This document shows, piece after piece, positions 621 through 58,105 of a stretch of 64,000 nucleotides of DNA; within the stretch, counting starts at the first letter, position 1; each line of letters begins with the position of its first letter. The stretch spans positions 7,929,424-7,993,423 of the forward strand of contig OY987231.1 in the NCBI GenBank assembly GCA_963920705.1, in the 5' to 3' direction. Both the position numbers and the translations under genes were made by a program. Source of the stretch: Odiellus spinosus (taxonomy: Eukaryota > Arthropoda > Arachnida > Opiliones > Phalangiidae). The notes under the pieces were generated by a model. That model saw nothing but the letters and a program-made list of their open reading frames with translations, did no database searches and was not told the origin of the DNA.

Positions 621-2150
621 ATGATTCGTATTTCGTTTTGCACTTGCGTCATTTGTTTAATTATGGGTTTCCACTTTGGGCAAGGTGAGATTTTAATTAC
701 TTATTCGCGGTTGATACTGCTTTGTTGTGATTTGATTTTCGAGGTAATTACAAAGGCTAATCAAATCAAGTTACTCATGAAGGAAAATGTTGTAAATTTT
801 GGTCTTCTAGCCCATACCCACGAGACGTAAATCTTTAGAAAGTCTGAAACTCTTTCTACTGATCCATGTGCTAACTTTAATTGCTGATGGAGGGCTCCTA
901 AATAACTATTTTCAAGCTTAAAGGGAGAATGCAACCTAATTACTAGTGATTTTTTTTTATCGATTCCTTGTCGTTTAAATAGGCCTAATCCACCGATAAA
1001 AAGTTTACAATACAAATATTAAACTAGAAATAAATTTAAAACTTACCCTGAAAATAGGCTTAGCGGGATTCATGGAGATCCTGAATTGCGTCCGGGTAAG
1101 GTCTAGCGACCAATGAGTAAAGGCCCGTCGCTCACGCGAGATCTCCACGAGACTTACAGTCGCGTGCGATTGGTCGCTAGACCTTACACGCGAGGAAATC
1201 AGGACCTCCATAAATCCCGATAAGCCTATTTTCAGGGTAAGTTTTAAATTTATTTTTAGTTTAATATTTGTCTGTAAATATTTTCAGTAGTGGATTAGGC
1301 CTATTTAAACAATAAGGAATCGATAAAAAAATCACTTGTTGTTAGGTTGCATTCTCCCTTTAAGACCTTTCTGCTAGAGCTGTTGTAAATTCATTAGATT
1401 GAGAAACGCTATAAGCGAGCTTCTCCGTGAGTTCAATCATTTCTACAGAAGGTTATAATTGTCCCTGTAGAAGTGTTACAATTGTCGCACACTTCTCATA
1501 TCATAGAGACTAAACACAAAGGATTGCCGAATATAATTAAAATTTTCTCTCCCCCCTCCGAGATTGAGAAAGAGTAATAACGCGTTGTTTGTCAATAGCA
1601 AGCTCTGGTTTATATCATTACTTTCCGTTTCACCCAAGTTAAGTGACGATGCTTGCGGAAAAGGTGTTGATGTAATTAAATGTTAAGTAGGATATCATTC
1701 AACTGGACACTGTTTTTAGGTGCTCGCGTTCAAGAAGCTAGCAATACAACTACGTGGTTAACTCTAAACCGAACTAAACGAGCCACTAGCAACGTTCTTT
1801 CATGGCGTATTATCTACAGTTTCACCATAAAACTATCCAAGATAGCTGGGGACGATGTTCTACTGAAGAACTTGATCCAAATGATATCTACCAAGACTGG
1901 TGATGTTTCCAAGGCATCAATATACGGTTATTACGGCTATAGCGTTCCCTACGCCTACGTCGCGGCCAGGCCCATTATCTATTACGTCCCCGTTCAAACC
2001 CAACAGTACGCTTTGGTTCCCATTTCGACCATAAACGGCTTGACTTCGAATTTTGGAAATACCGTGAGCAACTCGGAACTTTTGGAACAACTGATTCAAC
2101 TGATACAACAAGCTTTGGACGAATCTTACGATAGTACCGATTCGGCCTAA
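621..2150 (+). CDS. Small secreted protein, gene A of a three-gene family (unknown function)
   Basis: Two exons, 621..684 and 1720..2150, give 164 residues. Exon 1 ends one base into a codon at a GTGAGA donor; exon 2 follows TTTTTAG and restores the frame. Exon 1 encodes little but a hydrophobic signal peptide (residues 1 to about 21). A basic Lys-Arg site at 41-42 suggests proprotein processing. The rest has a conserved block (ATS..W..IY....K.SK..G...LL.N....I.T..G..SKA), a Tyr/Pro/Val-rich middle ending in IIYYVPVQTQQ, and an acidic amphipathic end of the form FGN.VSN.ELLEQLIQLIQ. Genes B and C downstream share this architecture and splice phase. AATAAA lies at about 2260. A 438-bp TTAA-flanked MITE sits in the intron. 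I do not recognise the family; secreted effector, cuticle/silk-like or antimicrobial roles are all guesses. Confidence 0.75.
918..1363. mobile_element. TTAA-flanked MITE in the intron of gene A
   Basis: TTAA at 918-921 and 1360-1363 brackets a body of 438 bp. The ends are inverted copies (AGGGAGAATGCAACCTAA at the left, its complement at the right), and the inverted arms run about 170 bp on each side through TCGATTCCTT, TTTAAATAGGCCTAAT and CTGAAAATAGGCTTA. The centre is a second palindrome built around GGTCTAGCGACCAAT. There is no coding capacity. A related, more diverged copy lies at about 34968-35401, and an expanded relative at about 15284-16405. TTAA target duplication is typical of the piggyBac and Kolobok superfamilies; which applies is an inference. 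Confidence 0.8.
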
Positions 2151-2550
2151 TTTATTCTTTTCTCGCAAGGTCGCGATCTAAAAAAGAACTGAAATTATTG
2201 TTCTAAAGACGTTTTTGGTGGATTTTAAGTCTGTAGTACAGATTTTTTGATAATTGCGCAATAAATTTGAAAATTTAATATCCGGCACGTATTATTCGAC
2301 CTTGGCCTAAAGTAGATATTTTAATTAACTTCAGACGAATTCCAAATATTAACTTGTTTTTTTTCAGTCTTGTATTGTGGATTCCGTCATCAACTACGTA
2401 AGAGTTGCTATTGGTCTTTCATAATTTAAATAGTAAGCCTAATGATTTGTAGGGCGTTTTATAGCTAGGCATATTAATGTGTACTCAGTTGAAACCATGT
2501 CGAAACAATTCTTTAACGTATGGGTTTTTCCCTTCTCTCGTTAATCTCAC

Positions 2551-2663
2551 TGACGTCGGGGGACGTAGACGACTTCATTTGTTTTATTTTTTAAAGCAAA
2601 GACTTGATTTCTTAGCCAATTCGCGTTTTTCAAAGTACTCATCAGATTGCTCTAGCGAATGCC
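2551..2663 (+). promoter_or_regulatory. Conserved proximal promoter and 5' leader of gene B
   Basis: About 110 bp upstream of the gene B start codon are kept at 6212-6326 upstream of gene C. Shared elements are TGACGTCGGGG.ACGTA (a CRE-like TGACGTC core followed by a second ACGT), a TTTGTTTTATTTTTT run, CCAATTCGCG (containing a CCAAT box) and CTCATCAGATTGCTCTAGCGAATG just before the ATG, in which TCATCAG may be an initiator. The two copies are recent duplicates, so conservation alone does not prove function. Confidence 0.4.
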
Positions 2664-4420
2664 ATGTCTAGCGGACGTTTTTTTTCGTGTCTGCTTCTTG
2701 TTGTAATTTTGGTGATAGAACTTACCCATGGTGAGTCTTCTTCGTTTTAAAGTTACAACAACGTTTAGTTTACTATAAATTGTTAAAATATATTCTTTCT
2801 ACTGTCTTAAAGGGACTATCTGCCCCCTTTAAAGTCGCCTTTTAGTGCTTATCAGACTTCGTTGACCTTAAGAAATTGTACAGACAAAACTAGGGTGTGT
2901 ACTTAATTTAAAGGGGCAAATTCTCGAGCAGGTAGGGCTTTTAAAGGCCCTATCTACTCTGAAACATGCCCCTTTAAAATGCTCTTCCCTTACGCACGCA
3001 GCCTAACTTTGACTGTACAATTTATTTTGTACAACGTCGTCTGCTAAGCTAGAAAAGAAGGAGACTTTAAAGGTGATTTGAAAATCGTAGATAGTCCCTT
3101 TAAGGCCAATAAAACATTGGGAATAAGAAAGCAAGGAATATGAGTAATAACCATATTAAACCCATGTTAAAAATAGATCCCCTTCATGTGTCTACGTCTA
3201 GTACTTGTAGACCTATATAAGATATGAAAATCCCCAAAAGGAGACGACGCGCACTACCCATTAGTTTGGCCATGGCAACTGAAAACGTTTTTTTTGCCAT
3301 TAAGCAACCTTCGTCGAACAAAAGAAATTTCTTTTCCCTATTTTTCCCAAAAATCGTACCAATTTTAGCCCAACAAAGAAGAATTTTACCTAGATATGAA
3401 CCATACCCATTTAACAATTTCGAAACAATTTGAAAATTTTGAAAAGGGTTTCACAGTGAAATCGAGAAAATCCCATGGAGATTTTTTCGATTGAAATGGC
3501 CAAAAACGTTTTCGGTTGCCATGGCCAAACTAATGGGTAGTGCGTCGTTCCCTTTTGGGGATTTTCCTATCTTGTGTAGAGATATGGACAAAATCGGCGA
3601 TAAACACCTCGGGTACTCTCCTTGTTAGTTCATCTTACTTCCCATTTGGTTGTTGATGGCAAAAGAATCTCTTTTCCTGTTGGAAATCTATCTGTTATCG
3701 AAATGACGTGGATGACCAACAGGGAAAAAGAGATCCTTCTACAGCAGATACTTTTAAGTCACGGGAGTTTGGGTTAGTCAATCGGTCTTAGTGGTAATGC
3801 GAGAGTATGGTCGTACTGAATAGACGATGGAAATCCACAGTATTGTGACATTTTTATTTAGTATCAAGGACAGGTTTAATCAGAACCAAGGTTGTTGTTG
3901 AAATCCACGAGAACAGCCCAGTTTTTCCAATACATACGAACGTAGTCGTTTACCAAATACCAAATCTCCCTCAGTTAAGGTGAATGGACTAAGATCCAAT
4001 CGTACCAGAAGACAAAGTCGAACGAAAGCTACCTCAACGGGCGCCATTCTAATGTGGCAAAGCATATATGTCATGTCTGTGAAGATGTCAAAAGCCTTTG
4101 GAAATAATGCGTTATTGGCCAACATGAACGACATGATCACGACCGAAATAGGTCAAACATCCAAGGCATATTGTGGTGGTGGTGGAGGAGGTTACCGAGG
4201 TGGGTACGGGGGATATAGTTACTCCCAACCACCTATAGTATATTACGTGCAAGAGCAGCAACCCGTCTATTTTGATACTGGTATCACCGATTTCACCAGC
4301 GGGTTTGGAGACGTCGTTAGCAACAACGCCTTGATCGAACAGTTGATTGCTTTGATACAGACTGCAATTGATGATTCCTACACGTACTACTACCAAAGTG
4401 ATACAACTGCTAAGAAATGA
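2664..4420 (+). CDS. Small secreted protein, gene B (Gly/Tyr-rich, unknown function)
   Basis: Two exons, 2664..2730 and 3975..4420, give 170 residues. The start ATG opens a classic signal peptide (MSSGRFF then SCLLLVVILVIEL). The donor is GTGAGT in phase 1; the acceptor CTCCCTCAG is at 3974. After cleavage there is a strongly basic stretch (RSNRTRRQSRTK, residues 29-40), a likely proprotein-convertase site. Then comes the block shared with gene A, beginning ATSTGAILMWQSIY. A Cys followed by a Gly/Tyr segment (CGGGGGG then YRGGYGGYSYSQPP) replaces the gene A middle, and the acidic amphipathic C-terminus (FGDVVSNNALIEQLIALIQ) is kept. AATAAA is at 4448-4453. The 1.2-kb intron contains two MITE-like insertions that the sister gene C lacks. 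It belongs to no family I know. Confidence 0.8.
2807..3103. mobile_element. 289-bp TTAA MITE in the gene B intron, with an empty site in gene C
   Basis: TTAA at 2807-2810 and 3100-3103 flanks a body starting AGGGACTATCTGCC and ending GATAGTCCCT. The two halves are inverted relatives (TTTAAAGTC, CGTTG, TTGTACAG and GGGGCA motifs recur in mirror order). The corresponding place in the gene C intron, about 6462-6485, reads CTATCTTAAAGCCAAT with a single TTAA and no insert, while gene B reads CTGTCTTAA[insert]TTAAGGCCAAT. That is a direct filled/empty comparison and fixes the boundaries. Confidence 0.85.
3205..3600. mobile_element. Palindromic MITE-like insertion in the gene B intron
   Basis: The left arm (GATATGAAAATCCCCAAAAGG, then CCCATTAGTTTGGCCATGGC) is the near-perfect inverse of the right arm (GCCATGGCCAAACTAATGGG, then CCCTTTTGGGGATTTTCC), with about 100-bp arms and a 200-bp unrelated centre. 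The gene C intron lacks it. Unlike the TTAA element, the surrounding sequence is not cleanly alignable (about 90 bp present in gene C is missing here), so the exact ends and target duplication are unclear. Confidence 0.65.
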
Positions 4421-4494
4421 ATTGTATACCACACAAAATTTATTTGTAATAAATGTGTTCCTTGTCTTTCTTTAGCTTGCTTAAATATAATTCT

Positions 4495-4640
4495 TTAGAA
4501 CCAAAGTTGCCCAAGCAACGTTTTCAAGGAAGATTTTTTGGGAAAAAAGGAGCTTTTTCGTTTTAACTAAGGTAAATTTCCATAGTTACGACGAAAAAGT
4601 TGCATTTTTGGGCTAAAATATCTTCCTTTGAAACGCGCCT
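4495..4640. repeat. Short palindromic repeat downstream of gene B
   Basis: A stem is formed by CTTTTTCGTTTTAACTAAGG and, after AAATTTCC, its imperfect complement TAGTTACGACGAAAAAG. Outer parts (AAAGTTGCCCAAGCAACG) add further self-complementarity. A related copy with CAACTTTTTCGTCGTAACTAA lies at about 53620-53765. It looks like a small MITE family; target duplications are not resolvable. Confidence 0.45.
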
Positions 4641-5275
4641 TTACAGTGGTCCGTTCTAGTGAGTCCTTGAACAGATGAGATTATTGATACTACTCGTGGT
4701 GGTATTTCTATCGACAATCGTTCTAGCGACTTGCTAAGATGGGAACGTTTCACAACACTTTTTCGCGAAACTTTGAATGACCCAGGTGTGAAATGGTCGC
4801 GTCATAAAATGTCCAATCTAGTCCATAGCGGAAGCGGAGCAAAAACCCGTAATAGTTGTGTAATATTATTTTTCTGCATTCTTGCGGATTTTGACCGCCA
4901 GACAACGCTAATAATCGCCCGCGACGGAAGTTAGCCAAGGAATCTGTTGACACTAGAAAGAGAAGATTAAAGTCTTTCAATAGAGATTTTTTTCAAATCA
5001 AGACATTTTCTTTTCGATAAAAATGCCTGCCACCTCTCAACGACATAACGAATTAACGAAAAGTTATGTAGTTAGGTCGTTGAGTGGAAGAGCTTTGGAA
5101 AATATTTTTTATGCACCCATGGAACCGAGGGTTTAACCATAAAATAAGTTAAAGGGAGTATCAAAATAAAATATTGTTTACTAAACACACGGCACTGTTT
5201 GTTACTTAAACGTAACCAGCGCCAGCTTTAGGACGCGGTTTCAGCTATAGTGGTACTTTGTTGATTCATGCAAAA

Positions 5276-5560
5276 AGTGGGCCTTTATGCTCCCTTCAAA
5301 GGCCATATCTGCTCTTAAATCTGCCCCTTGAAAATAAACATCCCATTTGCCGGCAACCTAGCGTTGATTGTACACCAACGTCTTTTTCTATGCAAGAGGC
5401 GACTTTAAAGAGACTATCGGCAATCTTCAAAATCTCGTTAATTTCGCCTTCTTTTCTTGCTTAGTTAGTCAACATTAACCAAAACAAACTGTACATTCAA
5501 AGCTAGGTTGTGTGCATAAGGATAGGTTCTGTAAAGGGGCTTTAAATTTCTTATACTCTT
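5276..5560. repeat. Rearranged copy of the gene B intron MITE family
   Basis: This stretch resembles the 2807-3103 element with its two halves in the opposite order: the segment with GGCC.TATCTGCTC, CTGCCCCTT, CCTAGCGTTGATTGTAC and GACTTTAAAG comes first, then the half with AGACTATCGGCAATC, TAGTTAGTCAAC and ACATTCAAAGCTAGGTTGTG. The same permuted arrangement occurs at 7838-8115 in the other duplication copy, so it predates the duplication. Confidence 0.5.
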
Positions 5561-5654
5561 GATAATGCCTTTAAAGAGTTACAGCATTATCTGGAAAGGT
5601 TTGGATAAGCAGACGAATTTTAATAATGGATTTTTCTCTAATAACCTTGTGTTC

Positions 5655-5777
5655 GGTACCCATTTCGACCATAAACGAATTTTGGAAATACCGTGAACAA
5701 CTCGGAACTTGGATAACTCGGAACAACTGATTCAACAAGCTTTAGACGAATTTTACGATGGTAACGATTCGGCCTGA
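5655..5777 (+). pseudogene. Decayed 3' fragment of secreted gene A
   Basis: The piece matches positions 2017-2150 of gene A: CCCATTTCGACCATAAACG, then AATTTTGGAAATACCGTGA and ACAACTGATTCAACAAGCTT, ending GATTCGGCCTGA. It has a deletion of about ten bases after ATAAACG and an added partial repeat (AACTCGGAACTTGGATAACTCGG), which break the frame. The downstream 3' flank (CTAAAGACGTTTTTGGTG, TTTAATATCCGG.ACGTATT) is also retained. It has no signal-peptide exon or promoter of its own, as expected for a gene cut by a duplication breakpoint. Confidence 0.8.
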
Positions 5778-6326
5778 TTGATTCATTTCTCGAAGGGTTG
5801 CGATGTAAAAAAAAAAACTGAAATTATCCTTCTAAAGACGTTTTTGGTGTGTTAAGTACTCGTATTCTTAGTCTGTAGTACAGATTTTTTTTTGATAATT
5901 CCGCAATAGATTTCAAAATTTAATATCCGGAACGTATTATTCGACCTTGGCCCTCAGTTGATATGTCAATTAACGTCAGACGAATTCCAAATAGTAACTT
6001 GTTTTTATCAGTCCAGTATCATGGATTCCGTCATTAACTACGTTGGTTTATCAACATTTAAATAAAAAGCCTAATGATTTGTGGAGCGTTCTATAGTTAG
6101 GCCTATTAATGTGTACTCAGTTGAAACCATGTCGAAATCCTTCGCGTGCCGGATGCTATTGTACAATTCGAAAACTATACGTTTTTTCCTTCTCTCGTTA
6201 ACTTCACTGAGCAAATCATGACGTCGGGGAACGTAAACGACTTTATTTGTTTTATTTTTTGAAAGCAAAACTATATCCTTGAATTCTTAACCAATTCGCG
6301 CTCATCAGATTGCTCTAGCGAATGTC

Positions 6327-7421
6327 ATGTCTAGCGGACGGTTTTTTTCCTGTCTGCTTCTGGTTGTAATTTTGGTAGTAGAACTTAACCATGGTGAGTC
6401 TTCTTCGTTTCACAGTTACAACCACGTTAGTTTACTATAAGAGGTTAAAATATATTCTGCTCACTATCTTAAAGCCAATATAAACATTGGAAATAAGTAA
6501 GCAAGAAATATGAGTAATAACCATCATCGCCCGTATTTCTTTCCTTCTACCTCTGCCACTTAAAGGTTTCCTGTTGGTTGGTCTACGTTGCCTACTTCAT
6601 CCGACTTCCCATTTGTCTGTTGTTGTCAAAAGAACTTCATCTATTTTTCCAGTTGGAAGTCTGCTCTCTGTTTTAAGTCACCGGAAGACCAATGAAAGGC
6701 GAGATCAAATAAAACAGACGTGAATGACCAACCAACAGGGAAGAAGAAATTCTTTCTAAAGCAGATACATTTAAGTCAAGGGTTTTTGGGTTAGTCGATC
6801 GATCTTAGTGTCATTGCGAGATTATAGTCGTGCTTTTAATAGACGATGGAAATCCACAGTTTTGGGACATTTTTATTTAGTATCAAAGACAGATTTAATC
6901 GTTGAAGTCCAAGAGAACAGTCCATTTTTTTCAATACCTACGAACGTAGTCGTTTACCAATTACCAAATCTTCCTCAGTTAAAGTGAATGGTCTAAGGTC
7001 CAATCGTACCAGGAGACAAAGTCGAACGAAAGCTACCTCAACGGGTGCCGTCCTAATGTGGCAACGCATATATGCCATGTCTTTGAAGATGTCGAAAGCC
7101 TTTGGAAACAATGCCTTATTGGCTAACCTGAACGACATGATCACGACTGAAATAGGGAAAACCTCCAGGGCCTACTGTGGTGGTGGTGGTGGAGGAGGAG
7201 GGTACCGAGGTGGGTACGGGGGTTATAGTTACTCCCAACCACCTATAGTATATTACGTTCAACAGCCGCAGCAGACATTTACTTTTGATACTGGTGTCAC
7301 CGATTTCACCAGTGGATTTGGAGACGCCGTTAGCAACGACGCCTTGCTCGAGCAGTTGATTACGTTGATACAGGCTGCCATTGATGATTCCTACACGTAC
7401 TACCAAAGTGAGGGAACCTAA
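6327..7421 (+). CDS. Small secreted protein, gene C (close paralogue of gene B)
   Basis: Two exons, 6327..6393 and 6979..7421, give 169 residues. The signal peptide exon differs from that of gene B by only a few residues, with the same phase-1 GTGAGT donor and a TTCCTCAG acceptor. The basic site (RSNRTRRQSRTK), the ATSTGAVLMWQ.IY block, a single Cys before an eight-glycine run, YRGGYGGYSYSQPPIVYYVQ and the FGDAVSNDALLEQLITLIQ end are all present. Codons and protein are intact, so the gene probably still functions after duplication. AATAAA is at 7456-7461. The intron is 585 bp, half that of gene B, and keeps the empty TTAA site. Confidence 0.8.
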
Positions 7422-7837
7422 GAAATAAATTGTATACAACTCAAAATTTATTTGTAATAAATTTATTAACGTACCATTGGAATCCATGGTAGAGTAATAT
7501 TTAAAAATATATATATAAAAAGAATAAATAAATTGGTTCATTATGTTTCTTTCGATTGATTTAATGAAAAGTTATATAGTTGGGTAGTTGAGTTGAAGAG
7601 CTTTGGAAAATGTTATTTATGCACCCAAATTGGAGCCCAGGATTTAACCATAAAATAAGTTAAAGGGAGTAACAAACCCAAAAATTGTCAACTAAACCCA
7701 CGCGACGGCTTGTTACTTAACGTAACCAGCACAAACTTTAGAAGGCGTTTAGGTATCATGGTGTCAGCATAAGTTATAAACTTATGGTGTTAGTTATAGC
7801 GGTAATTTGGTGATCCATCCAAAAAGTGGATATACTC

Positions 7838-8115
7838 TCTTCAAAGGCCCTATCTGCTCCTAAATCTACCCCTTGAAAATAAACATCGAATTTGCAGACA
7901 GCCTAGCGTTGATTGTACAATTTGTTATTCCCACCGTCTTCTGCTAGGCAAGAGGAGACTTTAAAGGGACTATCTGCGATTTTTTAAACCCCATTAAAGC
8001 CCTCTTCTTCACTTGTTTAGCAGACGACGTTGACCATAACAAATTTTACAGTTAAAGTTAAGAAAGATGGTTTTAAAGGGGCAAATTCTAGATCAGATAG
8101 GACCTTTAAAGGGGC
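7838..8115. repeat. Second permuted copy of the TTAA MITE family
   Basis: The order of halves is the same as at 5276-5560: AAGGCCCTATCTGCTCC, AGCCTAGCGTTGATTGTAC and GAGACTTTAAAGGGACTATC, then TTTAGCAGACGACGTTGACC, TTTACAGTTAAAG and TTTAAAGGGGCAAATTCTAG. Internal TTTAAAGGGACTATCTGC at about 7960 equals a terminus of the 2807-3103 element, so here two termini lie back to back in the middle. Confidence 0.5.
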
Positions 8116-8539
8116 TCTAAAACTCGCCTATAGTACCAGCTTACCAATATACTATATACTCTTGATAATACCTTTAAGAGTTACGCCATTATCGTGTAAA
8201 GTTTGGCTAAGTGGAGGAATTTTAATAAAGGATTTTTCTCTGATAATCTTGTGCTCGTATGAACTGAACCGAATCGAATCTAATGATTTTTGGGAAACCA
8301 GTCAGGGAGTCAGCCTTATGATCCTGGGTCATAAGGTCATAAGATCCAAAACCCTTTACTCATGCGTGCCTTTCCATCCCCCCTCCTTGTTTATCCAAAA
8401 TCCAAGTTTCTAGTCATTGAGCGTTTTTCATATAAAATGCGCTCAAGTTCGGTCTGAATAAAAGCTCTCGTACCCTGAATTTATTATTTTTATCTCTTTT
8501 AAATTTAACTAAGTTTTTTCACCTCTTTGAATCTTAAGA

Positions 8540-15283: not shown

Positions 15284-16405
15284 CGGAGTGAATGCAACTC
15301 GACGATCGTTTAAATAGCCCTAATTTACTAGTAAAAAACAATTATAAATCAATATTTAGCTAAAAATTTTATTTTTGGACTTGCTCTGAAAATAGGTTTA
15401 ACAAGGATCATTTAAGGTACAATCAACTAGCTCTATTTCGCGGACACGTTCAAACTTACTAAAAATTTAGAGCTAGAAATGTTTTATGAAAGTAGGCTTA
15501 ACAAGGATCTATAGAGATCCAGTCAGCTAGCAAAAGCATGAACCTCTTAAGACTAGTTTGAAACATTGTACCATCAGTAAAAATCTCACGCTTCTAAAGC
15601 TATTTGTCAAAGACTTGTTAATGACGAGATATCAAAATGATCTCCATGGATCCTTGTTAAGCCTATTTTAAACATGATTTTTAACTAAAAGTGAAAAAAA
15701 TTAGAGCCAATGTTAAGCTAGAAATCTCGTTTTAAACTTACTTGGAAATAGGCTTAACAAGGATTCATGAAGATAGTTCCTTAACTACATAAAACTCTTA
15801 CCTCTTAAGCCTAGTTTGAAACGTTTTCTTGTTAGAATAAGTAACGCGAAAGACTCGTTAACGATGAAATACCCTTCCTTTTTAAGGCCTTTTTGTAAGT
15901 TAAAAATTGATTTGTAACTTGCTACAAATATTAAGGTAGAAATTAATTCAACTTACTTGAAAAAAAAAAGCTTAACAAGGCTCAATGGAGGTAGGATGAT
16001 ATCTCAATGATATAACTCCTTGGTTCCTTGGTAAGCCTACTTTGTAAGTTAAGCATTTCAAACTTCTAGTTATAAAATCAAGAAACATGCTTGAAATTAA
16101 TTCATAATTTAGAAATTAGGCTTAGCAAGGATCCACAGATAGTTTATATCTCGTCTGTAATGAGTAGCCAGCTCTGAAATTTGACCAAAACCTTTGAAAC
16201 TAAGCTTAAATGTAAGTTACGCTCATTGGTCGAAGACTCTTCATGAATCCTTGTTAAGCCTACTTTCCAAATAAGTTAAAAATTAATTTCTATCTTTATT
16301 TATATTTTTGATAATGAATTAGGCCTATTTAAACGATATGTATTTTACGCTAGTAAATAATTAGTTGTTGGGCAATTGCATTCTTCCTTTGAGATAATAA
16401 CCGAT
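15284..16405. mobile_element. Expanded, internally reiterated relative of the TTAA MITE
   Basis: The outer ends resemble the 918-1363 element (GAGTGAATGCAACTCGA and CGTTTAAATAGCCCTAAT at the left; AGGCCTATTTAAACGAT and GCAATTGCATTCTTCCTTTGAG at the right). The inside holds alternating forward and inverted units of about 100-130 bp, each around AGGCTTAACAAGGATC or GGATCCTTGTTAAGCCTA with CATGGAGAT/GATCT spacers, roughly eight in all. This looks like a MITE whose subterminal palindrome was amplified. No coding capacity. Confidence 0.6.
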
Positions 16406-33541: not shown

Positions 33542-34164
33542 TTGAAAATAGATATTCGTGAGGGTTTTCATATACTCTTGATGTTGATGTGGCTACAGTG
33601 AACCACATCCTAAAATCTTTGTAGGGATATACCCCGCAAATCAAAAAAGTTACTACTTAGTCGCCTGTTTCATTTAGGCTTTAATTCAGTGACTTGTTAT
33701 TTTTAAATGATTAAGTAAATACGAAATGCGAACTCAGGCCTGTTACAAAATGTGCTATTTAATAACCTTACGTAACTAACGCTTATACCAACACTAATAC
33801 GAATTAAAACTAACACCAAGAGTGAATAAAAGACCGGGTTTTGTGTTCGGCGCGCGTCTACCTACGCCCCCTGGTGAGTGATAATATATTGACGCGAAAC
33901 GTTCAATCACTCATAAATGAACCTCCTGCTAACATTCTAACATTCCATTTAAATAATAATTGTTTCACACAATCATTTTGATATTTAAGCACTGAAAAAG
34001 CATGGTCACCTTCTGTCATTTAAAGGATAGTACCACGATCTCCTTGAAATTTAAATTGGGAAGACAAAAGGAACAATAAATTATACGGTTGCCCCGCAAA
34101 ATCAACCGCGAAGATTTTGATGCAGTGTTCATTCAAACATGGAAATATCAGTAAATTTAAATGA

Positions 34165-34855
34165 TGTCAAATATCAGGGAATTTTAATCATGTCAAATAT
34201 CAGGGAATTTTAATCGTGTCAAATATCAGGGAATTTTAATCGTGTCAAATATCAGGGAATTTTAATCGTGTCAAATATCAGGGAATTTTAATCGTGTCAA
34301 ATATCAGGGAATTTTAATCGTGTCAAATATCAGGGAATTTTAATCGTGTCAAATATCAGGGAATTTTAATCGTGTCAAATATCAGGGAATTTTAATCGTG
34401 TCAAATATCAGGGAATTTTGATCGTGTCAAATATCAGGGAATTTTGATCGTGTCAAATATCAGGGAATTTTAATCGTGTCAAATATCAGGGAATTTTAAT
34501 CGTGTCAAATATCAGGGAATTTTAATCGTGTCAAATATCAGGGAATTTTAATCGTGTCAAATATCAGGGAATTTTAATCGTGTGAAATATCAGGGAATTT
34601 TAATCGTGTGAAATATCAGGGAATTTTAATCGTGTCAAATATCAGGGAATTTTAATCGTGTCAAATATCAGGGAATTTTAATCGTGTCAAATATCAGGGA
34701 ATTTTAATCGTGTCAAATATCAGGGAATTTTAATCGTGTCAAATATCAGGGAATTTTAATCGTGTCAAATATCAGGGAATTTTAATCGTGTCAAATATCA
34801 GGGAATTTTAATCGTGTCAAATATCAGGGAATTTTAATCGTGTCAAATATCAGGT
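34165..34855. repeat. 26-bp satellite array, about 26 copies
   Basis: The unit TGTCAAATATCAGGGAATTT plus TAATCG is repeated head to tail with almost no divergence: a few units have TTGATCG instead of TTAATCG, and two have TGTGAAAT instead of TGTCAAAT. The first units carry CATG instead of CGTG. High uniformity implies recent expansion or gene conversion. The core TCAGGGAATTT also occurs in the internal repeats of the hAT-like MITE at 20376-20585. Confidence 0.95.
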
Positions 34856-34967: not shown

Positions 34968-35401
34968 TTAAAGGGAGAATGCAATCTAACAACAGGTGAT
35001 TTTTTTATCGATTCCTTATCGTTTAAATAGGCCTAATTTACAAAGGAATATTAAACTAGAAATAAATTTAAAACTTACCCGGAAATTAGGCTTAGCTGGA
35101 ATTACGTGAAGATCCTGAATTTCTTCGCTTTGATGAGTCAGCAGTGACCAATAGAATGTTATTGGACGTTTGATGAAGGTGTCGAATTAACACGGGCCTT
35201 TGTGCATTGGTCGGTGACCCATTAATGCTAAGAAATTCATGAACTCCATTAATCCAGCTAAGCCTATTTTCCAGGTAACTTTTGAATTTTTGTTTAATAT
35301 TTGTTTGTAATTTTTGTTACTGGTGGGTTAGGCCTTTTTAAACGATAAGTTTAGCTTCGTGATTTTTGTCGATTAGGAAACAGACCCTTAAAACAAAATC
35401 C
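34968..35401. mobile_element. Diverged TTAA MITE, same family as 918-1363
   Basis: TTAA at 34968-34971, then AGGGAGAATGCAATCTAAC, TTATCGATTCCTTATCGTTT and AAATAGGCCTAATTT, match the left arm of the 918-1363 element; TAAGCCTATTTTCCAGGTAA and GTGGGTTAGGCCTTTTTAAA match the right arm. The right terminus has decayed; a TTAA at 35398-35401 is the likely end. The centre is unrelated to the other copy. Confidence 0.7.
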
Positions 35402-35694: not shown

Positions 35695-36794
35695 AAATCT
35701 CCCTTAGTTATTGCTCCATATTCCGTTCTGTTCCGCTATCCACCAATAGAGGAAGGGGCAGAAATGACGCTAAAAGCCTTAAGTTCGTCGCATTTTAATT
35801 TTTTCTTCGTTAATTATGACCTAAATAAATTTGGATAATTTTCAAGTTAAACTGTATGTTGCCATTATATTACAAAATATTAAATTTCGAGTCTCGAACG
35901 AAATGCCAATATCGTTCAAAATTTCAGAATGCTACGACACTCCCAATAGTTGGTATTATAAAACTTCACTTTGTCCCGACCTTGAAAAAAAGGGCAACCT
36001 TTTGAAATAGGTTCTATTTTAAGGCTTTTTTGGTTGGTTTCAAAGTTGAGTGAAGTATAGATATATCCATATACTTTTTTCCAACCATGAAAAAAAGACA
36101 GCATTTACTTTAGAAACAAGTTCTTTTAACGGCTCTTTTTGTTTTCATCTTGCGACTGAATAGGTATTTTCGATTGTAATTTTGGCAGTTTAAAATTTTG
36201 ACCGAAAAGCAAACCTGAGGGGAATAATTTTAAAAGTTGAAAGAAACGTGAATTTTGTGGGATAACCGTAGTTTATCTTGATCCTTGGTTTATCCCCTAC
36301 AAGTTCTAGTTATAATAAAAACAATAACGTTCCGAAAATCGTTTATTACTATAACTTTAATAAGAGTATAAGCTAGAACGAAAAGTCGTCTTCTAAGGTA
36401 GATGGTAAAGCTTCATTTTCTAGCCACCAAGCTATTTGATGAATTTTCGGGAAGGTTTCTATTCTTATTTAACTAAAAAGAAGGTACAACGGTTGGGTCT
36501 ATGCGTGCTGAAATATTAAAGTGATTGTAACGTTGGTAAGATCCCTTTGAATCCCGTAATACGCATCATTTTAAGCATGCTGACACCCCACTATTTTACT
36601 CAAGAAACCTGTTTTTTTATTTTTTTTATTTCAGCTCTTTATTTTGTGCATGAATTCTGTCTTTCGCTCTAAAAACAAACCAAAGAACTGTCTCTATTAT
36701 TTTCCGCGATCCGTCTTTATTTATTTTCTTCTCAAAATACAAATTTTTACTTGGAATGATTTTGAAATACGTATGCAAACAACGATAAAAAAGC

Positions 36795-39700
36795 ATGTCG
36801 TCGAATGTTGAAAATGCCGACACTACCACTACTAGTTCAACCTTTAGTTGTTCGAAATGCGATTACGTATGCGGTAGTAAGCGCGTCCTGGCGGCTCACG
36901 ATTCCGCCGCGCATTCGGACAAAGTGTATCAATGTCCGCATTGTCCTTTTGTTTCCCGTTACCAGGCTAACTTTTATCGACATCGTCGCGTCGTACACAA
37001 GATCGGACGGACCACTTGCAACGTTTGCAATCTCGATTGCGAATCGATTGACGCCTTAATTCAACACAAGGAATTGGATCACGGCCAAGGCTTAGAGGAA
37101 GTTTTGCAACGTTACGAAAAGGATAAAGAGACCGCCGTCAACGATAAAAAACGAGAAGAATCGCGCGATGATTACGTCAATTTCGACGTCGAAGAACGTG
37201 AAAGATTGAAGAAAGCCGAAGACCTTTATTTCAGCGGATACGGTTACCAAGCCTTGCAACAACAAAGCGAAGAACCGATAAATTATTCGACCAAAGATGG
37301 GCAAAACGAGGAAGCTTTAGAGCCGGACTACGAACAGGCTTCGACCTCGACGCAACCGACAAGTCAGCAACCGGTTCAACAAACGTATAACGCGGACATG
37401 GCCCAAAGAAGCCCGTTAAAAGTGAAAAGACACTATACCTGCAAGGACTGTTCTATGCAGACCTTAGACCCTAGAGAGTTTCTCTACCATCGCAAAGAAG
37501 TTCACAGCGATCGTATTACCGTTCAAGAATGCCCTTATTGCATTTACGCGACGAAACACTTCCAAAAACTACAACGACATTGTGGTTTGGTACACAAGAA
37601 TTACCCGAAACTCACAATCAAACCTTCGGAAGGGGGCTCGTATCAACCCACCCAAGCGGTGAAAACGGCGCGAAAATCGGCACCCAATCGAACATCGCCG
37701 GTCAAAACCCCCGCTCGACCATCAACGTCTCTCGCCACGCCGAAAGTAGCGCCAAAGTTACCGATACGGCGATCGTCTACCTCTAATTCCGCGACGTCAT
37801 CTATCGTGTCTAAACTCGTTAACCCTGTCATAAAATGTACCAGGTGTGATTTCCAATGCAAAAGTCGCATTCTAATGAACCAACATGAAAAAACGGTCCA
37901 TTTAAGAAGACGCTTTTTCCGCTGTTTACAATGCGGTTACGTCACGAACGAACGAGGACGCTACACGAAACACGTGAAATATCATTCCTTACCCAAGGTC
38001 AAATGCGAAGAATGCGACTTTTACACGACTTACAAGTGGAATTTGGACAGGCACATGAAGAGTCACGAAATGGAAGGTCCGTATAAATGTACCAGATGTT
38101 CGTTTTCGGCAAATAACCGCCAGTCTTTAAGTTTTCATTTGGCCAAGCATCACGACGGAGGCAATCCCAACCAGACTGAGCAGGAAGAGGAGGAAGAGAT
38201 TGACCCCATGATGGAAGACGACGAATTAGAACCCGGCAGTAACGACGAGTTTGAAGAGGAAGACGCGCCGGAATTCGAGGAAGACGACGACCAGGAAATA
38301 TTAAATGAAAATTCTTTGGAAGATTTTTTGGGGTCTGACTCTCATCTAACCTGCCGATTCTGTTCCTTCAAAACGTATTCCAAATCTACTCTAGCCACGC
38401 ACGAAGAGTCGCATGGAAGCTCTAAACGCTATCCTTGCCCCCTTTGCGGCATTAGTTTCGATCACGTGGCTTGGTTAGCCAAACACTTAACTCAGAAACA
38501 CGGCGAAGCTACGGACTCCAAAGACATCACGAGAGCGCACAAAGAAGCCAAGAGAAGAAGTCAACAACAGCCGCCTAATTTAGAAGGGGAAAGTTCCGGC
38601 TTGGGGTTATCTCGACTCTCGACCCCTCCATCTTCACCGCCAGTTTTAAAAATGAACAAGGTCAGCAAAACATCTCTCCTCTCGTCTCCTAAAGATCAAA
38701 AATTGACCATCGGTCCTAGAGCCAAAAAATCAATGCCCAAGAAATCTGAACCAGAAGCTTCGACCTCAGATTCCGCGACCGAAGTTCCCAGGACGCCGAA
38801 ATTGCAACATTCCTGCACCGTTTGCAGTTTCAAAAGTAGATGGTTGTCCGAGATAGAGAAACACGTCAGGGTGCATTCTTTGGAGCGACCATTTGGATGT
38901 CCCAGCTGCAAATATCGCTGCAAATGGAAAGGCGATTTGAAACGTCACGTAATGAAATACCATGACGAGGGTTTAGTGGAATTGGTTGAAAAAATGAAGA
39001 CTCCTATACCGGACGGTTCCGTCGGGTACACCACTAGGGAAATAGAAAAAACGCGAAGCGAAATAATCGAGGAAAAGAAAAACGAGAGTTTGAAAATTAA
39101 ATTAGCGGCGACGAAGCCACCCGAAAAGGCAGTCATACCGGCCAGGAGCATCTTAAAACCGGTTAAATTACGAAATTTACTGACAAGAGGAAGAGACGAC
39201 ACCGACTGTAGGAAGTCATTGCGAAACGTACCTCGCAGAGGTTACGATTCCGAAGACACCGAAGTGTCTGTCGTCGGAAACGAATCTGACCAAGGAGATT
39301 TGGTAATTGACGAGTCTTACGGTGCCTCCGGATACGAACCTAACGTCGTTTATAATCGCAAACGTGAACGCGTGCGCGAAAAGACGCCACCTTCGCCTCC
39401 CTCCGCTAAGAAAGCGAAACTGTCGGAACTCCAAAGTGATAAAGGTAGCAATAACCAACCCCCCTTGGCAAACAAGAAATATAAATGTACATTTTGCCCT
39501 TTTATGAGCCGCACCGCCTCGCGTTTCCACGTTCACATCGTTCAACACTTGAACAAAAAACCGTTTATGTGTTCGACGTGCTTCTATAGGTCCAATTGGG
39601 AATGGGACATCACGAAACACATTAAGATTAAGTCGGTCAGGGATGAAGCTCACAGGCACGCCAGCATGTTGGTGACCGACGAATCTGGTCGGAAAAATTA

Positions 39701-42700
39701 CGAAAAATACAATCGCTTTCTGGTTGATGCCGAAGATTCGGGCGCGGAGGATGACGCCGTAGAAACCATCGAAGACGAAGAGGAAGCTATGAGAACGCCC
39801 GAAGTTGACGTAGAAGTGAATGAACAACTAGATTATGACATATCCCCGGATGACGTCGAAAATATCGTTGTGACCCCTGACCTCGGAGATGACAAGGAGG
39901 AAGATCAAGTCGAAAGTATTGAACTAGATTTATCTCGGTATTTCAACTCTCTAGGCGCGAGCCCGGAGAAGGTGCCAGAAAAAACTCACACCCCGTCGTC
40001 TAAACTGTATTACTGCCGCCATTGTTCCTTCAAAAACGCCGAGAAAAAGTCCGTAGTTGGTCATTTGAGCGTTCACACCGGAACCAAACCCTACCAATGT
40101 CGTATATGCGGTATGGTCTCCAATTGGAAGCACGTCATCTTACGCCACGTAAAAATGCGTCACGGTGGTGGCCTCGATGACGTCAAGAACAGGCTAAACT
40201 ATGTCGAGAACAACAGCGTTATCGAACTTACTGGTTACCCTGAGTTAGCCAGCGTCAGACCGACGAAAGACCCTCCCAAATTGAAAAAGGTTACGCCAGT
40301 CAGCACTCCGAAAACCGACAACCTATTTACTTGCGAAATGTGTCCCTACACTTGCGAGAAGCTATGCTACATGCATTTCCATATTAAGCAACACAAGCCC
40401 AGGGAAGGAGCCAACGTTAAATGCCCGTATTGCGATTATTGGGTCAATTTTAAGAAGACTTTGAATCGCCATTTGAAAGTACACCAAGAGAAGACCGAGG
40501 AGTTCCCGCAAGAAGAGACTCTTATACCGGACGTCACTTTTAACGAAGGCGAAAACGAATACCAAGAAGGTGAAGAATTCATGCAAGTTCAATTGCCCCC
40601 TCCGAAAAAGAATGGGCAGAAGAAATTTAAATGTGATTTTTGTCCTTATACGACCGAAAAAAAGCGCCACAAATTGTACCATACTCAGTTCCACCGCCCC
40701 AACAAAGCCGCGCCTTTTAAGTGCGACTACTGCAGTTACTGGGCTATGCATAGTCACCTCATTACTCAACACAGAAAGAAATGTCACCCGGATGATAACA
40801 ATGGATTACCCACGTTTACAAACCCGACTGAAGAAAGAATACCCCCCGCGGTGGAAATCTTCCTACCATCAAAATCACTATTAAATCAACAACCACAGCT
40901 TGAAACCGAACCCGTGGTGAACTTAACCGAAAACGAAGTTGTGGTGACTGAGCATAATGGCAAGAAAATTCGAATGATAAAATGTCGTTACTGCCCTATG
41001 ATGAACCGACGTCGATCTAATGTCAGGGCCCATGAAGAGATGCATTCCGAAATAAAAAACTCCAAGTTTCCTTGTACGGTATGCAATTACCAATGCAATA
41101 GTCAGGGCGTACTTACCAGTCACTTTAAACTTCACACGGCCGAAGAGGAAAAACTGCAACTAGAAGCGGGAGCCGGAAGCACCATCGACTTTGATTTCTT
41201 GAATCAGGCTACTTACGTTCCAAAAACTCCTCCCTCTTCTTCAGTTCCTAAATCACCAGGAGGCCGATTCACGTATTTCTGTCCTAGTTGCCCAGCCATG
41301 TTCAAGAGTCGATCCGATTACCAAACTCATTCGTCATTCCACGGATCCAGCTTCCCATTCGCCTGCGATCGGTGTAATTACAGGGCTAGGCATAAGCCTC
41401 ACCTTCATAAACATTTCCTCGTGCATTCCGATGGATATACTGCCAGACGCGAGGCAGCTCAACCTTCTTCCGGTCAAGCGACTCCTGTAACAGCTCAGAG
41501 TCCCAAAGGTCCCGCGTCCTCTGATGAAGGACAACTTCAGCCAGATGATAGCGGAAATTCCAGTACACAAATGAGCAGCGTCAATCAAATGCTGTTATTG
41601 GAAGAACGAGAAACCTCCATGTTTCTGGAAAAAGGTTTTGGCAAGCAGACACCCAAGGTCAACCAATGCCCCAACTGTCCGGCCACCTTCCAAAAACCAT
41701 CTGTTCTAACCTTTCATAAATACTTACACGGAGTAAATGGAAAATATTACTGCCCCCATTGCGACTACTCGGTCAACGAAATTAAAAACCTAAAAACCCA
41801 TCAAAAATTACATCCAGTCAAAGCTTCGACCGTCAGGACAGTCTTAAAAATATTCTCGTGTAATAAATGCCCCGCCGTTTTTACGAAAAACAACCGATAC
41901 GTCAAACACATAGAATATCACGGCAAGGACAATAAGTTTACGTGCGAGCGGTGCGATTTTTCCGTCAATCTCTTAATTTCGTTGGTTAAGCACCGCAGCG
42001 TTCACAAAAAAGAAATGGCTACCGAACAGAAGGGGGTGGCAGCCATCGCGTCTCCTAATTCCTCCTCGGTCATGCCAACAGTTTCGGAAGAACCAACCCC
42101 GGAACTTGATGCCGAGAAACAACCGGACGTCGCCAAACCGGATATCAAAGAGAAAGTAACCTATTGCTGTAATCGATGCCCTTACTTCCACGTCAGGCGC
42201 GACGCCATGATGAACCATCATAAACGGCACACGGCTAACGCCGCCATTCATTGTCCTCATTGCGACTATAGCACCGTACAAGCATCCTTTCTCAGGGATC
42301 ATATCAAATGGCATTTCCAACCGCAGAAGCTGATTAAACCCAATTCTTTCATGAAATATTCGGAGCTGGAAGTCTGGTCCGTAAAGGACGAGAAGCGCTT
42401 AATGCTGTTTAAAGATCACGGCGAGGATAAAGAAAACGAAAGATTTAATTCGCCCATGATGGACGATTCGGACAATGAAATTATAGAAGTCCCAACGCCG
42501 CTTAAGCCACCGGCCTTGGAAATTACTATCGACGATAACCCGGATTTAGCCCAATCCGCGCTTCAGAAAAGCAATCAATTGGAAGTATTATTAACCGACG
42601 TTTTCAAACCTAGCGTTCGCAAACTAATGGACAGTCCCGAAACTCCGGCAGCCAAAAAACGAAAACTCGAAGATTCCCAAACCGAAGATTCTGACGCGGA

Positions 42701-45700
42701 AAAGCTCGTCATTGACCACGAGTATATCTCCAAAGAACTGCGAAGCCCTACTCCTCGATGCGAAAACGGTTACCTTTCGACTTCTATCATTGAAGAAGAG
42801 GTTGAAGAAGAGTACGAACACCGAGAATACGTTCCCGATGACCCGCCAGCACCGCCACCTGTCGTAATAGAGCCTGCCAAACCTACAAAGATCACTTGCG
42901 AAATCTGTCCCTACACTACCGACCAACTATGTACCATGCAGATTCACAAAACACGACATGAACCCCGAGAAGGTGCCAAATTCAAGTGCCCGAGATGCAA
43001 TTACTGGACTAGTGACATTAAAAGCATGAAAAGACATTTAAAGCTTCACAATCAAAAGGAAGCTGAAGAGGAAGACGATACGTCAGCAAAGAACGCCGCG
43101 GAAGACGATACGTCAGCAAAGAACGCCGCGGAAGACGATACGTCAGCAAAGAACGCCGCGGAAGACGATACGTCAGCAAAGAACGCCGCGGAAGACGATA
43201 CGTCAGCAAAGAACGCCGCGGAAGACGATACGTCAGCTAAAAACGCCGCGGAAGACGATACGTCAGCTAAAAACGCCGCGGAAGACGATACGTCAGCTAA
43301 AAACGCCGCGGAAGACGATACGTCTTCTAAAAACGACGCGGAAGCCGATACGTCTGCCAAGAACACGGAAATCGATATGTCATCCAAGAACGCCGCGGAA
43401 GGCGATGCGTCAGCCAAGAACGCCGCGGAAGCCGATACGTCAGCCAAGATCGCCTCGGAAGTCGACTCGTCAGTCGATATCGCCGCGGAAGTCGACTCGT
43501 CAGTCGATATCGCCGCGGAAGTCGACTCGTCAGTCGATATCGCCGCGGAAGTCGAAACATCAGCCAAGAACATCGCGGAAGTAGATACGTCAGGCAAGAG
43601 CGCAGCGGGAGTCAAAACATCAGTCAAGAACACAGCGGAAGTAGATACGTCAGGCAAGAGCGCAGCGGGAGTCAAAACATCAGTCAAGAACACAGCGGAA
43701 GTAGATACGTCAGGCAAGAACGCAGCGGATGATCTAAGGAAACCTGCGGAAGTTGACCAATTGGAGACTCAGAATATAGATGAAGCTAGAAACGCCATCG
43801 ATGACCAAGAAGTTATCGACGCGGTCGAAAATATGCTACAAGAAACCCGTTTCGACGATGAAATGGACTTAACGTCCTCGGTTCACGATCAAGACGACGT
43901 TCTAGAGCGAGTCGAAATGAACTATAGAGATTTGGACGAAGTGAAGGAAAACGATCAAAACAAAACACCACCGACCAGTCGGCTCAACGAAGACGAAGAG
44001 ATGGAGGTAAACACGCTCGAAGAAGATAGTAGTGAAATTAATCATACCTACGCCGAGTTCGAAGGTTCGCCGGAAGCAACAGGTGAAGATTGCAAGATCG
44101 ATGGGAAAGCTACAATGGAACCTATTAATTTTATCAATTATAATAAATCGGCTGCGCCAGCGCCGGTTTCTTCGGAGAAACGTCACCAAGAAATGGTCAA
44201 ACTGACTCCAGCAGGATCTTCGGAAAATAGCCCAAAAACAGTTTTTGAATGCAAAACCCTAGAAAATATTGCAGTGTTGACAGAAAAAAACCAAGAAATT
44301 GGTTCTGACTCTAACCCAATATCTTCTGACCTACATAACATTAAGAAAACAGCGGAAAATGCCCAAACTTCTTCAGAAAATAGTCAAGCTGATATAGTAG
44401 ATTCGCCTGAAAACAACACGAAAGAAATATGTGTACTTACTCCAGCAGTTTCGCCGGATAATAGACTACAAGAAATAAATGAACTAACACCAGATGAATC
44501 GCCAGAAAATAGCCCACAGAGTGAATGCGAATCTACTCAATTATCCTCGGAAAGTAACCCAAAAGAACCAGACACAATTCCAGAAGTGTCAGAAAATAAA
44601 TTTCAAGAAATCTCTGAGCCAGCACCCGAAGTGTCTTCACCGAATGCTTTGTCACCCGGTATTACGCTAGTTACGGAATCCACCGAAAATACACGGAAAG
44701 AAAGCGAACCAGCTGTAAGCTCCGCTAAACACAACCCAGAACAAAAATTGGATGGGATCCCCTCAACATCCATTGAAAACGAATTACCTCTATCACCCAT
44801 ATCTAGCGAAGATATTCAAGAAGAATGTTTTTCGGAACCGGAAGTCGAAGAAAAGGACAAAATTGAAGAATTAGCCATACCATCTCCAGTATCCATCGAA
44901 GACAACTCTGACCTGGAGCCAAAATTGCAAGAAAGGGCTAATGAAAACATACTTGTACCTGCAAGTAGTAATAAGGACCAGAAGCCCGTAACGTCACCGG
45001 AATCAAATCAAAATAGTCAAGGTCAGAAGCCAAATGACGAATCCATTGTAGATTCTGAAAATCTTCAAGCTTCCAAAGAAATAACTTTACTACCCTCACC
45101 AATAACCCCTGAAACACCTCCCCAAGATGATAAAAATGATCGGGATGAAGATAACAGTTCGAGTTCACCCCTTGATGAAGATGAAACCAAAGAAGTTGCG
45201 AAACAAACGCCTGAAAACATTATCGAAAACGAAAACTTAGAAACACTCAAATTGGCCCGCGGCGAAGACGATCCAGAAATATTGGACGAAGGACATCAAG
45301 GCGTAGTTACACCGGAAGATTCGAGTTTTGAAAATGTAGACGCCAAAGAACCTGATAATGTAATTCAGTCCCAACTTCTGAAAGCGTACTTCTCGTCCGA
45401 TGTCACTTTCCCTCGGGAGGACACGAGTTCTCAAGAAAATGATACTAAAAGTTCAATGGATGACGATTCCGTCGCGGAAAGCAAATCTGCTTCGGAAATT
45501 CAATCGCCAGTTGATATGGAAACGTCGGAAAAACCAGTCGAAACTTCAGTAAACCACGAACCGTCGTCTTCGATCAAAGATAGCATCAAAATTCTATCTT
45601 TCGAGGACCTATCTCCGGAAGCGGCCTCTCTTCACGCGGAACCTAGTCCAGCTCCTTCAATTGCCAACGAAGATGCTCCTGTTTCGTCCGTAGATATGGA

Positions 45701-46793
45701 TAACATTGAAGATGATATGGAGCAAGATGAGGCGGACTTATCCCAAAGCGAAATTGACATGTCGGATATGATTATCCACGAAGAATCTGAGTCGAATCCT
45801 TCTCAAGTCGAATCTAAGGATGAACTTAACTTTAAAGGTATACTCCAGGATAAACTTTTTTAACATTCTAAAATAAAAAAGCTCATTTGAAAACACACAA
45901 AACCGATATCATTTTTTCTAAATTACGTCATGTAGATCAATCAATTGAATATTTTGGATAGTAACATTTTAAATATTTAACGAAAAATGCAAAGCTGAAT
46001 GTTTTTTGTTTTAAAATATGCAGCTGTCGTTATAAACTAGAATTCTTTTAAAAGGGATGGTGAAGATGTAATGATCTTTTATTGATTCTGCTTATAAATA
46101 TAGAACATATTTGCATAGGAAAACATTAGTAATTGTCTTCGGAAACTTTCAGATTTTGGTTTACAATTAAAGTAGAAACTAATAAAAAGACGCCCCTGTA
46201 CCTTTTCTTAATAAAAATCCCCGAGACACTTGCCGCGGCACACTCTCTGAATAGCCCTAAACCTCGTTCTTGATTAGTATTGCACCTTCAAGAGCGCGTG
46301 TCGCGGTAATTTTACGAACCCAAAGGTGCCAGTGTCTTTTTAATTAGTCGAAGGTTTTTCTTTTAATTCAGTGCTAAAGTCTGAATCTTTCCTATTTTTT
46401 CTGCGCAATTCTGACAAGTACATTTCTCGAATGTTTAAATTTAATAGTAGAATCGATAAAAAAATCATTTCATTTTCTTTTGCACCCCCTCTTTAATTGT
46501 CGATCTTTTTCCTTTAACCAATGAATTTCCCCACAGTGGACGATAATTCCGCTAACGATTTTAACGAACAACCAGTAAACGCGGCGGACCAGGAAGCCAG
46601 CGATATTTTACTGAATATGGCGTCGGAGTTTTTTTCCAACGGTAGCACCAGGACTTCCACGAACAATCTCAATTCTCAGGACGGTACCGTCGAATGGCCA
46701 GCGGAAATACCCAATAAGAACGATGTTTTGGCTAATCTTCTAATGAACGCTGGTGTGTATTCAGACGACGAGAACTCTAATCCCTTACTATAA
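36795..46793 (+). CDS. Giant poly-C2H2 zinc-finger protein with acidic repeat tail
   Basis: Exon 36795..45837 (over 9 kb, 3014 codons and one base) is joined to 46537..46793: donor AAAG|GTATAC, acceptor TTTCCCCACAG. The total is about 3,100 residues. I count about 33 C2H2 fingers (C..C.12.H.3-5.H) between residues 17 and 2080, mostly as adjacent pairs separated by long acidic or Ser/Pro linkers, for example CSKCDYVCGSKRVLAAH and CPHCPFVSRYQANFYRH at the start and CEICPYTTDQLCTMQIH near the end. At least one (FMCSTCFYRSNWEWDITKH) lacks a normal final His. Basic PAKKRK and SAKKAK stretches are likely nuclear signals. The C-terminal third is acidic and disordered, with a 10-residue repeat array. 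The family suggests a nuclear DNA/chromatin-binding regulator, but I cannot name an orthologue. The ATG follows a probable 5' UTR acceptor at 36634. An unspliced form would end at 45863, next to AATAAA at 45872. Confidence 0.9.
43071..43730 (+). repeat. In-frame 30-bp (10-residue) repeat inside the zinc-finger gene
   Basis: About 22 units encode variants of EDDTSAKNAA. The first five are identical in DNA (GAAGACGATACGTCAGCAAA, then GAACGCCGCG), the next three share synonymous GCTAAA, and later units diverge (EVDSSVDIAA three times, EVDTSGKSAA/GVKTSVKNTA alternating). One unit is a codon shorter. Identity at synonymous sites points to recent slippage or unequal exchange rather than protein-level selection. 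Copy number is probably polymorphic. Confidence 0.95.
45864..46536 (+). other. Last intron of the zinc-finger gene / alternative 3' end
   Basis: Intron 45838-46536 has a stop codon 24 bp in and AATAAA at 45872-45877, so reading through the donor would give a short alternative tail (GILQDKLF) and could be polyadenylated at once. Near 46450 a degraded TTAA-MITE end (AATCGATAAAAAAATCATTT, then CTTTAA) is visible. Confidence 0.45.
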
Positions 46794-57275: not shown

Positions 57276-58105
57276 CTTCCTAGTGTCCCAGCCCTCCCCC
57301 TTCCTAGTGTCCCAGCCCTCCCCCTTCCTAGTGTCCCAGCCCTCCCCCTTCCTAGTGTCCCAGCCCTCCCCCTTCCTAGTGTCCCAGCCCTCCCCCTTCC
57401 TAGTGTCCCAGCCCTCCCCCTTCCTAGTGTCCCAGCCCTCCCCCTTCCTAGTGTCCCAGCCCTCCCCCTTCCTAGTGTCCCAGCCCTCCCCCTTCCTAGT
57501 GTCCCAGCCCTCCCCCTTCCTAGTGTCCCAGCCCTCCCCCTTCCTAGTGTCCCAGCCCTCCCCCTTCCTAGTGTCCCAGCCCTCCCCCTTCCTAGTGTCC
57601 CAGCCCTCCCCCTTCCTAGTGTCCCAGCCCTCCCCCTTCCTAGTGTCCCAGCCCTCCCCCTTCCTAGTGTCCCAGCCCTCCCCCTTCCTAGTGTCCCAGC
57701 CCTCCCCCTTCCTAGTGTCCCAGCCCTCCCCCTTCCTAGTGTCCCAGCCCTCCCCCTTCCTAGTGTCCCAGCCCTCCCCCTTCCTAGTGTCCCAGCCCTC
57801 CCCCTTCCTAGTGTCCCAGCCCTCCCCCTTCCTAGTGTCCCAGCCCTCCCCCTTCCTAGTGTCCCAGCCCTCCCCCTTCCTAGTGTCCCAGCCCTCCCCC
57901 TTCCTAGTGTCCCAGCCCTCCCCCTTCCTAGTGTCCCAGCCCTCCCCCTTCCTAGTGTCCCAGCCCTCCCCCTTCCTAGTGTCCCAGCCCTCCCCCTCCC
58001 CCTTCCTAGTGTCCCAGCCCTCCCCCTCCCCCTTCCTAGTGCCCCAGCCCTCCCCCTCCCCCTTCCTAGTGCCCCAGCCCTCCCCCTTCCTAGTTTCCCA
58101 GCCCA
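57276..58105. repeat. 24-bp minisatellite, about 34 copies, G-quadruplex-prone
   Basis: The unit is CCTAGTGTCCCAGCCCTCCC plus CCTT, 29 units being perfect. The last units have a 6-bp CTCCCC expansion (30-bp form), a GTGCC variant and then decay. Each - strand unit holds GGGGGAGGGCTGGG, so the array can form many G-quadruplexes (i-motifs on the + strand). Because 24 is divisible by 3 and the unit lacks stops in several frames, long open frames result (PSVPALPL, SQPSPFLV, and TRKGEGWD on the - strand). I do not regard them as genes. Confidence 0.95.

Follow-up and report, generated by a model that had tools for sequence, protein, structure and literature searches.

What kind of protein is encoded by three adjacent, similar genes at the beginning of the window, a 64,000-nucleotide stretch of the Odiellus spinosus genome (C7:7929424-7993423)? 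An earlier note, made from the DNA letters, placed two-exon genes at 621-2150 (g1), 2664-4420 (g2) and 6327-7421 (g3), and spliced frames together with tblastn located all three there, on the forward strand. Exon 1 lies at 621-684 in g1, 2664-2730 in g2 and 6327-6393 in g3, and exon 2, including the stop codon, at 1720-2150 (spliced frame, tblastn), 3975-4420 and 6979-7421 (both spliced frame and substitution pattern), giving proteins of 164, 170 and 169 amino acids, respectively. The introns are all GT-AG and in phase 1, and an AATAAA follows each gene on its 3' side, at 2260, 4448 and 7456. A tblastn comparison gave E-values of 7e-21 for g1 and 1.7e-68 for g2 against the g3 exon, so the likeness of the three is above chance.

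As the note had proposed, exon 1 of each gene encodes a hydrophobic leader only, with a best 10-residue Kyte-Doolittle mean of 2.85, 3.93 and 3.90 for g1, g2 and g3. Leader-like phase-1 exons in the remaining window (111,400 bases, both strands) numbered one at a threshold of 2.4 and five at 2.0. The five leaders identified in the family, including those of two further members described below (g0 and C2), score 2.56-3.93, and are far above the chance rate; hydrophobicity alone was used to assign these signal peptides. An earlier start of exon 2 in g2 and g3 was considered and rejected: mismatches between the two second exons fall 14/7/25 by codon position (chi-square p 0.005), whereas in 3902-3974, an open frame that immediately precedes the acceptor used here, they fall 3/4/1, small counts with no third-position excess and no coding-type substitution pattern. 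The intron of g1 also holds an inverted repeat of ~450 bp (917-1364), self-complementary at 82.8% and similar to MITE-type elements, with related copies at 34968-35349 and 16238-16394 of the window.

To find further members, the genome (443 Mb, 286 contigs) was searched with g2, g1, C1b and single conserved blocks, all of which returned the same set; counts for large families in such searches are lower bounds. Nine family genes are present: g0, g1-g3, C7a (C7:6.50 Mb), C7b (C7:6.748-6.751 Mb), C1a and C1b, which lie 88 kb apart on contig C1, and C2. The leader exon and phase-1 intron were identified in g0, g1, g2, g3 and C2; C1a, C1b and C7b have no more than candidate first exons, 1.4-5.6 kb upstream, and none was found for C7a. 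In a tree of the eight proteins other than g0, g2/g3 (100/99) and C7a/C7b (96/94) are supported pairs, and C1a and C1b pair at 91/92. A copy of C7b on contig C149, about 98% identical, was taken for its other haplotype. A simple pseudogene was considered for C7b and rejected, since the two halves can be connected in phase 1 through a GT-AG interruption, a putative intron whose donor is weak. The presumed intron carries a 32-bp tandem array, with 74.7 copies on C7 (locus 3759-6147) and 41.7 on C149 (locus 3843-5175). A match on contig C6 (E 2.19) was dismissed as chance because its frame is read as that of an unrelated Snf7/CHMP4-like protein.

The three genes in the window appear to have arisen in part by local duplication. 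The segment 2012-2812 is repeated at 5652-6474 on the forward strand (77.8%), 3705-4454 at 6717-7462 (85.1%) and 5050-5655 at 7558-8257 (70.2%). This is read as a tandem duplication of ~2012-5655 with its left edge within g1 exon 2, which would have produced g3 and left behind the broken g1-like fragment seen at 5675-5774. Between g2 and g3, dN is 0.080 and dS 0.367 over 166 codons (dN/dS ~0.22), and the two genes are under purifying selection. Silent sites between g1 and either g2 or g3 are saturated, and no dS value was returned.

The basic cleavage-like site claimed earlier is present in the translations as RTKR in g1 (1770-1781) and as RTRRQSR in g2 (4001-4021) and g3 (7005-7025). Among the eight aligned proteins, seven carry R-x-[KR]-R ahead of the mature part and C1a has KR alone; no basic site is present in g0. 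Together with the signal peptides of g0-g3 and C2, this is what is expected of a secreted, convertase-processed protein, the actual cleavage being putative. Downstream lies a linker, Tyr-rich in g1 (1920-2021) and Gly/Tyr-rich in g2 (4172-4273) and g3 (7176-7286) by composition and translation, which is 43-73 residues long across the eight proteins and holds a PIxYYV-like element. Its Tyr content is 12-24% in all eight and its Gly content 23-31% in seven, the exception being g1 at 7%; no tandem array was called at g1, g2 or g3. The fast-changing middle described by the note thus holds for length among the paralogues, but not for the DNA of g2 and g3, where the middle has an identity of 0.900 and the rest of exon 2 0.887-0.929. 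The mature chains have a pI of 4.5-5.2 in six of the eight proteins (6.7 in C1a and 8.8 in C7a) and a net charge of -10 to +2, and each protein contains 0-3 cysteines.

The linker is flanked by two conserved blocks, which the note had taken as separate. Profile comparison with hhalign instead points to one module in diverged copies. The N blocks of the eight proteins, taken as 39 columns starting at W..IY, aligned with the eight C blocks over 33 ungapped columns with a probability of 83.5%, an E-value of 8.2e-6 and a score of 25.5. None of 300 shuffles of the C-block columns came up to that score (best score 15.8, best probability 10.7%), the reversed C block scored 8.9, and of 3000 shuffles one attained the ungapped N-C profile score, figures that are not strict probabilities, since the block limits were chosen by hand and the eight sequences are mutually related. 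The hydrophobicity of the two blocks correlates at 0.56 over the 33 columns. In single sequences the repeat signal is weak: N and C are 18-27% identical within a protein, and the domain E-values of N/C cross-matches run from 10 to 690 for six distinct matches, each of them in the register expected, with one more at 1. On the evidence of the profiles, a single module of ~33 residues is present at both conserved ends in diverged form, and a module-linker-module layout describes the family best. By alignment and hhalign, the N modules (39 residues) lie at 1803-1919 in g1, 4055-4171 in g2 and 7059-7175 in g3, and the C modules, placed by hhalign, at 2022-2138, 4274-4390 and 7287-7403. The ATS..W..IY block of the note survives in the eight paralogues as W..IY plus invariant G and L residues at scattered positions; the ATS is common only to g1-g3. 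In all eight proteins the 39-residue modules differ in the sign of their net charge, which is +1 to +5 for N and -4 to -7 for C. Helical periodicity was clear in one of four stretches (reached by 4 of 2000 shuffles, compared with 118, 465 and 165 of 2000 for the others), and the modules are perhaps helical hairpins.

A divergent member upstream of the trio lends separate support to the internal repeat. This gene, g0 (C7:7928245-7928810), came to light when the eight proteins were compared by tblastn with the DNA preceding the window (E about 0.01), and ends 1,233 bases before g1. Its leader exon is followed by a 56-base phase-1 intron, the protein has five cysteines, and the Gly/Tyr stretch is absent; used as a genome query, g0 matched nothing besides itself. 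With g0 held out, the profile of the eight N blocks finds it with an E-value of 8.9e-9 among 6441 open frames, some of them repeated in overlapping loci, and matches it twice, the second time where the other members carry the C block. Each half of g0 beats 1000 of 1000 shuffles with the N profile, whereas with the C profile the scores of the halves are reached by 50 and 236 of 1000 shuffles, which indicates that the second g0 module is closer to the N type than to the C type. The protein thus contains two N-type copies. Overall, we judge both the family and the repeat within its proteins to be very probably real.

Comparison with known families leaves the note's statement that none could be named intact for the libraries searched: Pfam, NCBIfam and PDB returned no significant match. 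In Pfam, nothing matched g1, g2 or g0 up to E 10, and a search with the eight exon-2 proteins gave three weak matches, each to one member, namely Keratin_2_head (E 0.018), DUF2268 (E 0.29) and the folded gastrulation domain FOG_N (PF15888; E 0.32), the last to g1 only; it scored 12 bits, below the one cut-off given for the three, 27. Three proteins searched against NCBIfam gave no match, and neither did g1 and g0 against PDB, where the best profile E-values were 0.4 and 0.72. In viral contigs, 127 stretches fit a pattern and none is a relative. Among the papers listed by literature searches, none dealt with such a family, and no paper contained any of six family strings of 7-10 residues. Uncharacterised relatives may well exist in UniProt; the family is an unnamed one, in which secreted proteins of a familiar kind show a new arrangement.

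Spidroins combine conserved termini with a changeable middle rich in Gly and Tyr, and the present proteins share with them secretion and this general layout. They differ in having a short middle, a basic processing site and two ends that are versions of a single module, and Spidroin_N (PF16763) matches neither the family proteins nor, at E<=1, anything else in the genome; the linker, at the length given above and with no array called, does not form the long iterated core repeats of the spidroin type. Gly/Tyr-rich, low-complexity proteins of cuticle, cement and defence occur in arthropods and nematodes. These resemble the family in linker composition, small size and secretion, but here there are paired conserved modules, the mature chains are mostly acidic, and a Pfam cuticle domain is absent, with no match to Chitin_bind_4 (the Rebers-Riddiford cuticle domain) among the eight members or g0. 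A third comparison is with the cuticle collagens of Caenorhabditis elegans, which are cut by BLI-4 at an N-terminal dibasic site before assembly (PMC10538796). The matrix proteins trimmed in this way share with the family an N-terminal furin-like cleavage site in a secreted protein, which in our case is predicted. Unlike those collagens, the family has no collagen match, and its place in a matrix is hypothetical.

The arrangement of modules around a Tyr/Gly linker suggests, but does not prove, an extracellular material, and we tentatively favour a structural role, as a building or glue material, over the other readings considered. In such a scheme, a furin-type convertase would remove a short propeptide during secretion, as suggested by the basic site. 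The opposite charge on the two module copies invites pairing, so the N and C modules could associate within a chain or between chains, in the latter case head to tail. The Tyr/Gly linker could supply cohesion or cross-links, for example dityrosine bonds, and the product might be a cuticle or egg coat, a glandular glue or a silk-like secretion. Several findings speak against this reading. The g1 linker is poor in Gly, no member has long iterated repeats like those of classical silk, helical periodicity is clear in just one of the four stretches, and the repeat is weak in single sequences. In addition, g0 has neither the basic site nor the linker, and its modules have charges of -2 and -6; both being negative, they speak against opposite charge as a rule for the whole family. 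A stronger version, in which internal duplication created charge-complementary ends and the chains polymerise head to tail after the convertase cut, forming a self-assembling fibre or glue that evolved in a chelicerate or myriapod independently of spidroins and insect fibroins, is in our estimate a long shot.

We consider it unlikely, though less so than the remaining rivals, that the genes encode a secreted glandular effector of saliva, venom or seminal fluid, freed from its propeptide, with the modules as scaffold and the variable middle as interaction surface. Tandem and dispersed duplication, the propeptide-like basic site and the variable length of the middle would all be expected of such a protein, but cysteines are few, g2 and g3 are under purifying selection at a dN/dS of about 0.22, and their middle evolves no faster than the rest. 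A Gly/Tyr-rich defence protein activated by cleavage is improbable: the Gly/Tyr-rich stretch, the basic cleavage site and the multigene family agree with it, but the mature part is long with two conserved modules, and the predominantly low pI and the range of net charge reported above are not those of a cationic antimicrobial peptide, for which a net positive mature chain is expected. The pI of 4.5-5.2 in six of eight mature chains puts a cationic defence peptide last among the three functions suggested in the note, of which the structural and effector roles remain candidates. Least probable of all is a signalling protein or peptide hormone precursor, for which the Q directly after the basic site in five of the eight proteins (g2, g3, C1a, C1b and C2) could form pyroglutamate, but which is at odds with the single processing region, the long mature chain with a low-complexity linker, and a sole signalling-family match that is the sub-threshold one of FOG_N to g1.

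Should the favoured material role be true, the family would represent a compact design for a secreted material, two oppositely charged copies of one module joined by a Tyr/Gly linker, and would show the origin of such a protein by internal duplication. In that case the natural comparison would be with g0, which lacks the Gly/Tyr linker and whose two modules are alike, whether it is ancestral or derived. Should the function differ, this would still be an unnamed, conserved arthropod gene family.

The trio shares the window with SPRY and LisH exons, read as those of a RanBP9/10-like gene, and with queuosine-salvage and cytochrome-b5 exons. A single open frame of 3024 amino acids at 36789-45863 encodes C2H2 zinc fingers, among them a single weak match of ZNF462 type that stays under the cut-off; a 30-bp repeat array lies within the frame at 43070-43729. 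Two further tandem arrays, both with a 98% match, are a 24-bp array of 33.8 copies at 57276-58104, open in four of the six frames listed, and a 26-bp array of 27.4 copies at 34143-34854.

Elsewhere in the genome, contig C286 is mitochondrial, and four cox1-like matches on C17, 67-70% identical to the query, resemble nuclear copies. In the mitochondrial sequence, cox1 abuts cox2 with no trnL2 between them; trnL2 in this position is the hexapod and crustacean state (PMC1636051), and judged by this gene order the host is probably a chelicerate or myriapod. The trnQ and trnI genes were called beyond the large rRNA gene, a placement that matched no group among the arrangements described in parts of PMC2231378 and PMC4368715. 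An Orco query of the genome gave only matches of 22-25% identity, and at C15:11.73 Mb there is a cluster of open frames of ~390-400 amino acids distantly like insect odorant receptors (22-25%), which is read from these similarities as gustatory-receptor-like.
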